A stretch of DNA of 49,193 nt from Pseudomonadota bacterium (GTDB taxonomy: Bacteria; Pseudomonadota; Alphaproteobacteria; GCA-2731375). This document shows, one piece after another, positions 2,653 through 47,795 of the stretch. Numbering within the stretch: position 1 is the first letter of the stretch; each line of letters starts with the position of its first letter. The notes under the pieces are model-generated. The model saw only the letters and a program-made list of their open reading frames with translations, ran no database searches and was not told the DNA's origin. The DNA lies in the NCBI GenBank assembly GCA_027623205.1, contig JAQBYC010000023.1, forward strand, positions 1 to 49,193. The letters are read 5' to 3'. Position numbers and translations under genes: made by a program.

Positions 2653-3405
2653 TTGGACACCAGTTTGAGTATGGGGCAAATGCGGATGGAGCTGGCGGCG
2701 TCGTTACGTTGGGCGGCCCGTCTCGGCTTCAACGAAGGGGTCGACAATCATTTCTCCATGGCCGTGGCGGGTGACGATGGCGCCGGGCGCGCCGGCCGTT
2801 TTTTGATCAACCCTTTTGGCTGGCACTGGTCTGAAATTACTGCGTCGTCGCTGGTTCTGTGCGATGTGGACGGCACCGTGCTGGAAGGCGACAACAAGGT
2901 CGAGGACACGGCGTTTTATATTCATAGCCGTGTGCATCTGGCCTGTCCGGCGGCAACGGTGGTTATGCACACCCACATGCCCCACGCTACGGCCCTGACC
3001 CTTTTGGAGGGCGGGCGCCTCGAAATGTGCGAGCAAAATGCCCTGATGTTTGACGAACGTATCGCCTATGACGATGAATATGAGGGCTTGGCCCTGGATG
3101 CGGCGGAAGGCGATCGTCTGGCGCATAAAATGGGCAATAACAGTCTGTTGATGATGGCCAGTCATGGGGTATTGGCGACCGGGCCCAACGTGGCCGAGTG
3201 TTTCAATGATCTCTATTATCTCGAACGGGCGGCGCAGTTCCAGGTTCTGGCCCGCTCAACAGGCGGAACATTGCGGACGATTTCCAGCGATGTGCGCGAG
3301 CGAGTGCGCCAGCAAATGGGCGCGGAGCGGTGCAGGGTAGCGGATCGCCATTTTACCGCCCTGCGCCGCATATTGGACCAGGAAGAGCCTGACTATAGGC
3401 ACTAG
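2653..3405 (+). CDS. Class II aldolase/adducin family protein
   Basis: A 250-residue class II aldolase/adducin domain protein. Members are zinc enzymes such as fuculose-phosphate and rhamnulose-phosphate aldolases, but many bacterial paralogues have unknown substrates. Zinc-ligand histidines are visible in HTHMPH at about residues 106-111, and a later MASHGVL supplies the usual further conserved histidine. The segment GFNEGVDNHFSM corresponds to the substrate phosphate or glycine-rich region near the N-terminus. I chose the TTG start at 2653 because a strong GGAGGT lies at 2643-2648; an ATG at 2629 in the same frame lacks such a site. The gene stands alone and is followed directly by repeat copy A. 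Confidence 0.82.
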   Translation: MDTSLSMGQMRMELAASLRWAARLGFNEGVDNHFSMAVAGDDGAGRAGRFLINPFGWHWSEITASSLVLCDVDGTVLEGDNKVEDTAFYIHSRVHLACPAATVVMHTHMPHATALTLLEGGRLEMCEQNALMFDERIAYDDEYEGLALDAAEGDRLAHKMGNNSLLMMASHGVLATGPNVAECFNDLYYLERAAQFQVLARSTGGTLRTISSDVRERVRQQMGAERCRVADRHFTALRRILDQEEPDYRH

Positions 3406-3505
3406 ACCAGTTTTCGATTAGTCGGAGTCGCTCTTGCGACTTAAGTAATTGGCTCAATTGCATTAATCTTTAGGAATCTGAGCGTGTTTCAAGGAAACAT
3501 GCGCT
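3406..3505 (+). repeat. Dispersed hairpin repeat, copy A
   Basis: An intergenic repeat directly after the aldolase stop codon. Hairpin 1 pairs AGTCGC (3426-3431) with GCGACT (3436-3441) around a TCTT loop. Hairpin 2 pairs GCGTGTTTC (3482-3490) with GAAACATGC (3494-3502) around AAG, using one G-T pair. Both hairpins and the text between them (TTAAGTAATTGGCTCAAT, then TCTTTAGGAATCTGAGC) recur in copies B, C and E. It may act as a terminator or mRNA 3'-end stabiliser; that role is inference. Confidence 0.7.
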
Positions 3506-3550
3506 AGTCGATCCTCGTTTGGAACCAACGGAATTTGGCTGCGATTTTGT

Positions 3551-30284: not shown

Positions 30285-30307
30285 GCGATGTGTACTCCTC
30301 GATTACA

Positions 30308-30358
30308 GAACAATTGCTCTTTTCTTAAGAGTCCAAGCATGTTTAGAAGAAACATGCG

Positions 30359-30360
<2 letters not shown>
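30308..30360 (+). repeat. Dispersed hairpin repeat, partial copy B
   Basis: This matches the right half of the repeat family (compare copy C: TTTTCTTAAAGAGTCCGGGC). The hairpin pairs GCATGTTT (30337-30344) with AAACATGC (30350-30357) around AGAAG. The stop codon of the leftward flavoprotein gene (30359-30361 on this strand, CTA) lies at its right end, in the GCGCTAG that is also seen at the end of hairpin 2 in copy A. Lying between two leftward genes, it can be read as RNA. Confidence 0.6.
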
Positions 30361-32424
<2,064 letters not shown>

Positions 32425-38037: not shown

Positions 38038-38043
38038 GCCGGG

Positions 38044-38078
38044 TTATTCCAGAACAAATTTCAATTACTGCGAGCGGG
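38044..38078 (+). repeat. Dispersed hairpin repeat, degraded partial copy D
   Basis: The stretch TATTCCAGAACAAATTTC and AATTACTGCGAGCGGG matches the left end of copy C (CTGGGGCAAATTTC, AATTATTTGGAGCCG). The rest of the repeat is missing, and the left hairpin is lost. It lies in the 48 bases between the convergent enoyl-CoA hydratase and flavodoxin-like genes. The match is short, so this copy is less certain than the others. Confidence 0.45.
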
Positions 38079-41695: not shown

Positions 41696-41802
41696 TCTGG
41701 GGCAAATTTCAATTATTTGGAGCCGCGAACGCGGCGCAAATAATGGCTTCAATCGCCCTTTTCTTAAAGAGTCCGGGCATGTTTTAAGGGAACCTGCTCC
41801 AG
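41696..41802 (+). repeat. Dispersed hairpin repeat, copy C (most complete)
   Basis: It begins 2 bases after the gluQ stop. Hairpin 1 (41712-41744) pairs ATTATTTG with CAAATAAT, then GCCGC with GCGGC around GAAC. Hairpin 2 is at about 41778-41798: GCATGTTTT and GGAACCTGC around AAG, with one mismatch and two G-T pairs. The left flank (TCTGGGGCAAATTTC) and the middle (CTTTTCTTAAAGAGTCC) are shared with the other copies. Its position at the end of gluQ would let it end or protect the gluQ message. Confidence 0.72.
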
Positions 41803-41888
41803 GTATGAAGATAAGTGGCGCGGACCGGGCCTGTAACCGCTGGGCCGCGGCCGTTGGCTCCGGAGGAAGGTAACGGGGACGGCCACTC

Positions 41889-42140
41889 TCACTTGAGGCT
41901 AAAGGCACCGATCCGCGCCTGAGATAACACTAGCATTGCAAAAATCACCGAGAGAATGACCGCCATCACACTTGGTGGATATTTCCTGTCGATAAATATT
42001 GCGGTCGCGCGTAAATATGGCTGCCAATACCTGCCGGGAAGGGTACTCGACAGCGGACCCCAGAGCCGGTAATCACGACAGGTTTCGTTGCCTGCCGTCC
42101 AGCGGTGGGTGCGGGGGAAATTGGGGCTGGCCGTGGTCAC
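41889..42140 (-). CDS. Hypothetical small membrane protein
   Basis: An 83-residue frame with a GTG start (42138-42140) and AGGG seven bases upstream. The C-terminal part has one clear transmembrane helix (SVMAVILSVIFAMLVLSQ) and a basic juxtamembrane segment (RATAIFIDRKYPP). I do not recognise a family. It is divergent from the acyl-CoA dehydrogenase gene, with 53 bases between, and the region otherwise has no gene. It may be a real small protein or chance; conservation would decide. Confidence 0.33.
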   Translation of the reverse strand: MTTASPNFPRTHRWTAGNETCRDYRLWGPLSSTLPGRYWQPYLRATAIFIDRKYPPSVMAVILSVIFAMLVLSQARIGAFSLK

Positions 42141-47646: not shown

Positions 47647-47692
47647 TTTGGCGTGAAGCGGCTAATCCATAACCGACGGGAACCGCCGACCA

Positions 47693-47795
47693 GAGCCCAT
47701 TTGATCCAAATGCGCTCAGAATCTTTAAAATAGAAAAATTGAACCAATCACTTAAGTCGCGTTCGCGACTCCAATTAATTGAAAATTGCTCCAGG
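47693..47795 (-). repeat. Dispersed hairpin repeat, copy E (between dctP and dctQ)
   Basis: It is on the strand opposite to copies A-C. Hairpin 1 pairs AGTCGC (47755-47760) with GCGACT (47765-47770) around GTTC; the stem has G-C to A-T changes relative to copy C but stays paired. Hairpin 2 (47693-47717) pairs GAGC and CATTTG with their complements around a GAT loop, with one mismatch. It is read in the sense direction of the TRAP operon and lies between the dctP stop and dctQ start, a place where hairpins can stabilise the upstream mRNA. Confidence 0.68.

Follow-up and report, generated by a model that had tools for sequence, protein, structure and literature searches.

Introduction

Among described repeats, the nearest relative in kind to the family reported here is CIR, the CcrM-associated intergenic repeats known from Caulobacter and Brucella (Chen and Shapiro, 2003, as outlined in PMC2229807), because both join a two-arm plan to GANTC sites. 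In the outline given there, CIR is about 110 bp long, lies outside genes, consists of two inverted-repeat arms and a linker, has TA termini and conserved GANTC and occurs in alphaproteobacteria with CcrM, all of which our family shares; landing on stop codons, as proposed here for our family, is not mentioned in the passage on CIR in that source (PMC2229807). The family also differs from CIR in its hundreds of copies, its terminal inverted repeats and the position of GANTC, which CIR is described as holding at a terminal loop and which here is found within the stem close to the left loop, and in the linker as well. RIME elements are said, on the strength of work by Osteras in 1995, to be intergenic alphaproteobacterial sequences of about 108 bp with two large palindromes, and on this received description they resemble our family in length, palindromes, intergenic site and alphaproteobacterial host. 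They are named from Rhizobium and Sinorhizobium in the passage of PMC2573895 that bears on them; our consensus had no match in 72,556 plasmid records and our covariance model none in pSymB 1-50000, a comparison that likens the two by description and not by annotated RIME sequence.

Two repeats of Streptococcus pneumoniae supply further points of comparison. RUP, 107 bp long, has been proposed to be a miniature inverted-repeat transposable element (MITE) of IS630-Spn1 (as summarised in PMC2229807 and PMC3049150), and our family is like it, as far as those summaries go, in length, TA target, terminal inverted repeats, high copy number and the presence of IS630-type insertion sequences (IS) in the genome. 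The two differ in that the ends of RUP match an IS630 and no IS with matching ends was found here, and in that RUP is described as one end-to-end stem and our element has two arms. BOX elements give the stop codon in 36 of 58 overlapping coding sequences, without strong evidence of truncation, according to the part of PMC3049150 that treats them; in supplying stop codons to neighbouring genes BOX is a precedent in kind for what we describe, although its sequence is unrelated and modular and that part of the source reports no exact insertion within a codon (PMC3049150). The statement in the earlier note that the family resembles no known element was thus too strong, since CIR has the same plan of two arms and linker with GANTC and RUP the same length and TA target. 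The kind of element is already known; what is new is this family and the way in which it restores stop codons. Our literature search, covering titles and abstract openings with few subscription journals, returned no description of this family or of a stop-restoring, TA-inserting MITE, and the words "stop" and "IS630" do not occur in the text of a 2024 review of prokaryotic MITEs (PMC10969869).

Results

The window (the whole stretch of 49,193 nucleotides analysed here, from an uncultured marine alphaproteobacterium) holds three full copies of the repeat. All three had been proposed in the earlier note and are real, with ends that we correct to 3402-3507 (+) for copy A, 41697-41802 (+) for copy C and 47690-47794 (-) for copy E. 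In copy A, the TAG at 3403-3405 doubles as the stop codon of a gene ending at 3405; copy C starts 2 nt past the gluQ stop codon (the gene runs to 41694), and copy E interrupts a terminator-like inverted repeat at its loop. The claimed partial copy B (30305-30362, +) holds up as a right half of 58 nt that the covariance model finds at 33 bits (E 4.6e-5), and its terminal CTAG (30359-30362) contains the stop codon of the minus-strand gene 30359-31477. Partial copy D (38042-38078, +) is a doubtful left-end remnant, a 34-nt match of 76% to the left end of C that the model misses at E<=1. The claim that every copy is intergenic needs only a small correction: A and B each overlap a neighbouring gene by its TAG stop, and this shared TAG is the element's own end.

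Within copy C, the left hairpin (41698-41760, +) comprises an outer stem, a CAATTA/TAATTG stem and a GCCGC/GCGGC stem, and the right hairpin (41775-41799, +) is of the GGGCATGTTT/GGAACCTGCTC type, both assigned from the consensus fold and pair counts; the linker carries a GANTC site, read from the sequence as GAGTC (41769-41773, +), and the family's first GANTC site has been lost from this copy. The change from GTCGC/GCGAC to GCCGC/GCGGC, reported in the earlier note, is a real double change and the sole one at that pair in 62 copies.

Across the family, the element is about 100 bp long, encodes no protein and consists of two hairpins and a linker. Its consensus, CTAGAGCAATTTTCAATTAATCGGAGTCGCTCTCGCGACTTAAGTAATTGGTTCAATTGCTCTATTCTTAAAGAGTCCGGGCATGTTTTAAGGAAACATGCTCTAG, gives a fold of -40.9 kcal/mol (z -7.6) in which a long left hairpin with interruptions is followed by a right hairpin. 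In an alignment of 62 copies, 34 from the host's own genome and 28 from relatives, 89.9% of cells pair and double changes occur in 20 of 32 pairs, against 10.0 after shuffling, so that the compensatory changes claimed from the window extend through the family. Double-change cells number 75 against 24.6 shuffled, a value reached in 0 of 500 shuffles, and many of these cells represent one inherited change because the right stem switches en bloc between GCATGTTT/AAACATGC and GCRCATTT/AAATGYGC subfamilies. The covariation supports all four helices.

The unit is bounded by terminal inverted repeats TAGAGCA...TGCTCTA, in full (TA)GAGCA(A)TTTTC / GAAACATGCTC(TA), with a similarity between left and right ends that 0.8% of shuffles match. 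End-to-end pairing of the termini, at 87.7% of cells, is weaker than pairing within the hairpins. Conservation has sharp edges, with G4 kept in 59 of 62 copies and C103 in 58 of 62, and drops to 42-47 of 62 at the flanking TA positions; 17 of 62 copies retain TA on both sides. Compared as direct repeats, the outer 4 nt at left and right are uncorrelated (149 matches against 148.6 shuffled). Whole units are the rule, the sample containing three solo left ends and no solo right end, and head-to-tail arrays occur, namely three end-sharing units in the genus genome G010 and pairs in the stretches L101 and L087. Nearest-neighbour identity among 70 copies has a median of 0.83 and a maximum of 0.95, by which measure the copies are not very young. 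Two unusual arrangements were seen in addition. At L247:5780-6080 (G000:C169) the right half is doubled, the module TCTTAAAGAGTCCGGGCATGTTT..AACATGCTCTA being repeated head to tail, and looks as if inner and outer CTCTA motifs had recombined; at L255:2087-2193 (G001) a variant with the same ends and middle and another left-hairpin core begins at the CTAG that closes an IS630-type IS, which suggests further subfamilies or a mosaic exchange of arms.

The family is large and almost confined to one genus. The core pattern GCATGTTTN{2,6}AAACATGC occurs at 90 places in the host's own genome and at none in a reversed control, and a single-copy query of that genome gave 43 matches (40 candidates scored of 149). 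A covariance model built from 29 copies, a search that the earlier note had suggested, matched 150 of 150 scored candidates there (the best 150 of 1478). In 849 kb, the window plus 40 stretches of 20 kb, it gave 100 hits, from which the first 86 (E<=0.005) less three overlapping echoes leave 83 distinct copies; by extrapolation the 5.02 Mb genome would hold about 490, an estimate that may be somewhat high because the sampled contigs (about 17% of the genome) were already known to bear copies. All 11 genus genomes contain the family, with between at least 5 and at least 96 matches each (96 candidates scored per genome). Among other genera of the same taxonomic family, one of four genomes had one weak match (G014, 6.6e-5), and 26 other genomes of the class had no covariance-model match. 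In an even draw of 385 class genomes, scored for the 10 best candidates each, all four genus members matched, and outside the genus one of 381 had one weak match (1.9e-5) and 380 had none. An Rfam scan of the window returned only a tRNA at E<=1 and no described RNA family matching the element. Genus-wide occurrence and covariation together bear out the idea of a structured intergenic family special to this lineage.

Two side observations concern where copies may or may not be seen. The gluQ orthologues closest to that of the window (85%) belong to the metagenome-assembled genomes OFTM58 and BS150m-G9, and 80 gluQ loci of less than 6 kb each had no copy at E<=1, a null result informative only for the few loci of the genus because the density is one copy per 10 kb. 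In G000, several copies lie near contig ends (for example C44:96-201, C89:127-231 and C162:9-113), so that assembly may fail at the repeat and leave additional copies out of sight at these ends.

Copies lie almost wholly between genes. The 755 genes used for this measure were called with a gene finder of our own making; on average, coding sequence covers 3% of a copy and 88% of a random place, and none of the 83 copies is more than half coding. Eight copies at stretch edges could not be placed, and 62 of the 83 passed an end-alignment filter; the 75 placed copies occupy 48 tandem, 22 convergent and 5 divergent spacers, against 44.8, 10.4 and 19.7 expected (p 6e-6), which amounts to a shortage of divergent and an excess of convergent sites. 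Where a gene points its 3' end at a copy, the two share an orientation in 54 cases and are opposed in 38, which is no clear bias.

To compare filled with empty sites, we aligned 14 copies (A, B, C and E of the window, four in L103, three in L096 and three in L087) with the orthologous regions of the relatives G002 and G010. At least one relative has no copy at 12 of the 14 sites, which bears out the earlier suggestion of a MITE-like element; the other two are L087:5485, where a colinear flank is missing, and L087:18575, where no relative aligned. The copy is absent in both relatives at A, C, L103:4754, L096:4388 and L087:12440, and that of C also in L127, L128 and L131; it is clearly absent in G002 at E, L103:5540, L103:16529, L103:19313 and L096:17383, and in G002 only at L096:13780. 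Copy B is absent in G010, where the site is shorter by 48 of its 58 nt. The site of copy E, inside the loop of the inverted repeat GGGACCGCC..GGCGGTCCCC, measures 105 nt in the window and exactly 4 nt in G002, and that of L096:4388 corresponds to a 4-nt gap in G002; these two are near base-exact. At the clearer empty sites the lengths differ by 91-120 nt (with differences of 41 and 65 also at L103:19313 and of 61-167 at L103:16529), and most are not base-exact because the relatives are only 80-88% identical. Incidental comparisons gave differences of 218 nt at L100:5762 and 57 nt at L100:6854, and in one relative of C (L133/L244) the spacer is longer through other DNA. At the stop of L096:13780, G010 has a copy of its own (L301:1429-1533, -; 66 bits) with the same orientation and the same stop, of another subfamily, which may be either inherited or a second, independent landing. 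After the stop of A and at the L087:5485 orthologue, G010 has short AGAGCAG-like text without a convincing model match, perhaps element remnants.

Thirty-five gene ends overlap an element, and 29 of them coincide exactly by the stop codon (the other 6 overlap otherwise), where reading frame alone would lead one to expect about a third at the terminal TAG. These 29 belong to distinct copies of the 83, the neighbour's TAG being positions 2-4 of the element or the mirror of these at the other end, and 16 of the copies have the same orientation as the gene and 13 the opposite. Ten stop sites fall among the 14 copies compared, nine of them comparable with G002 or G010. Of the 16 comparisons that these allow, 13 show the relative's gene ending at the same codon, 11 of these with TAA or TAG. 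The codon is TAA and TAG in the relatives of A, TAA in both at L096:4388, TAG in both at L096:13780 and L103:19313, TAG in G002 at L096:17383, L087:5485 and L103:5540 (the last compared with G002 only), and TGA in both at L087:12440. All three failing comparisons are in G010, which has TGA one codon later at L096:17383, no stop there and TAA six codons on at L087:5485, and, by an extrapolated alignment, TAA about three codons earlier at B. The same-codon stops indicate that genes are mostly neither shortened nor lengthened by the element. In the own-genome sample (L087-L126 plus the window), 266 of 731 genes stop with TAG, a share that seems high for a genome of 60% GC, and 29 of these stops are element ends.

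Discussion

We conclude that the repeat is probably a non-autonomous MITE, its unit running G...C over about 100 bp, which inserts at TA dinucleotides, with CTAG preferred, in the manner of IS630/Tc1-mariner elements and is moved in trans by a putative transposase. The TA target, the CTAG preference, the inverted ends and the lack of coding capacity point to this manner of insertion. IS630 itself reportedly prefers TA within CTAG, as is told of work by Tenzen and Ohtsubo in 1991. Duplication of TA on insertion is stated for ISY100 (in the pertinent part of PMC2170065), and a like duplication in our family would rest on the conservation step at the element edges and on one clean empty site, since the outer 4 nt do not correlate as direct repeats. 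We rejected the ideas that these 4 nt represent a duplicated CTAG target or form a selected stem, direct and inverted correlation being no better than shuffling. CTAG is rare in the sample: base composition predicts 3051 occurrences and 415 are present, 53 of them inside elements. As RNA or single-stranded DNA, the unit would form two hairpins joined by a linker.

Genes of IS630 type are present in 9 of the 11 genus genomes, and an IS630-type IS of about 1260 bp, with HTH_32 and DDE_3 frames and CTAG on both sides, occurs in G000, G001 and G002 (in L256 its left CTAG is at the very start of the contig; in L262 the IS and an element have one CTAG in common). This IS was rejected as autonomous parent, its termini being unrelated to those of the element. 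Across 20 PF13358 (DDE_3) loci, several of which end at contig edges, no transposase gene was flanked by element ends except where a complete copy lay nearby, and the accompanying scan for TA-flanked inverted repeats is a weak one, having missed the CTAG-bounded IS that locus comparison found. Strong copies lie near three of the 20 loci and a weak copy near one, about as copy density predicts.

The strength of the structure invites the reading that the repeat is a cis-acting RNA element, a 3' UTR stabiliser, attenuator or RNase III substrate selected at gene ends: the two-hairpin fold is strong, all four helices covary, 29 copies have a stop codon at their start or end, and the stop of L096:13780 bears a copy both in its own genome and in G010. 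G-U cells also outnumber A-C cells by 112 to 62, an asymmetry between strands that we discount because by type of pair column it is only 29 to 24, cells are not independent and the aligned copies had themselves been collected by means of a structure model. MITEs too are expected to show palindromes and covariation, orientation is near even (16:13 at stop codons, 54:38 overall), and most of the sites checked are without a copy in a relative though the genes are conserved. Near-even orientation, avoidance of divergent spacers and missing orthologous copies fit a mobile element that persists where damage is smallest, and they leave the RNA-stabiliser role that the earlier note had entertained without support; we regard selection as a cis-acting RNA as improbable.

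Hairpins and head-to-tail arrays speak for a REP/BIME-like element moved as a single-stranded hairpin by a RAYT (Y1 transposase), and Y1_Tnp genes are present in 9 of the 11 genus genomes, two of them in the host's own. REPs are known to flank their RAYT genes, yet the flanking sequence covered at 12 Y1 loci (12 of 20 matches) contains no copy, and in place of a GTAG/CGTC head the element has terminal inverted repeats and TA ends, so that a RAYT-driven origin appears very improbable. Descent from or membership in CIR, with a CcrM-linked role in chromosome biology, is improbable in our judgement. The element, at about 106 nt, has two arms and a linker, TA at its ends and GANTC at two places, consensus positions 24-28 (in the stem, near the loop at 31-34) and 73-77 (in the linker); it carries up to three GANTC sites, at least one of them in 66 of the 83 copies, at a density of 11.9/kb against 1.8/kb in other intergenic DNA and 1.0/kb in coding DNA, and the host encodes a CcrM-type methylase (PF01555 plus RAMA). 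However, conservation at the GANTC positions is about that of adjacent positions, we saw no selection on GANTC beyond that on the element's remaining sequence, in the class but outside the genus 380 of 381 genomes had no model match among their 10 best candidates, and the likeness to CIR is one of plan, taken from descriptions and not from sequence.

Returning to a TA-inserting MITE as the preferred reading, the stop-codon coincidences would follow from the ends of the element. When an insertion hits the TA of a stop codon, the element's first base, G, would restore TAG. Read inward, each end starts with G, so a TAA or TAG stop that takes up an element becomes TAG whichever way the element points, and the protein keeps its sequence. 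Copies would survive at such sites and generally on the 3' sides of genes, and selection, rather than targeting, would then account for the enrichment at stop codons. We also raise, tentatively and as a possibility that we consider doubtful, that stop codons serve the element as safe harbours to which it is adapted: the outermost G...C beside the duplicated TA would be kept so that any TAA or TAG becomes TAG both ways, and the stops of hundreds of genes in the genus would have been rewritten with the proteins unchanged, by an element that also carries about a tenth of the scarce CcrM (GANTC) sites (99 of 983 in the sample).

These findings suggest a testable rule, by which a dense bacterial genome may keep hundreds of small transposons without gene loss if they insert at the TA of a stop codon and their own G restores it. 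They further show that an intergenic repeat can be structured and covarying without being an RNA regulator, and they enlarge the group of CIR and RIME, for which the mode of movement is unsettled, by a family found throughout one genus.

A separate candidate structured RNA of about 104 nt, conserved downstream of gluQ in the genus, lies next to copy C in the window (41817-41919, +). Rfam yields no match to it in the window at E<=1, the one hit being of 13.7 bits, below gathering, in L127; its consensus fold has double changes in 4 of 31 pairs and a slightly unfavourable covariation term. The candidate has a closing stem GGCGCGGATCG/CGATCCGCGCC and near-invariant CCGGAGGAA and CACTCTCAC, and it recurs at L128:3372-3472, L131:3300-3403, L133:3316-3419, L134:3374-3476, L136:3397-3501, L213:5551-5654 and L221:3539-3643 (-).
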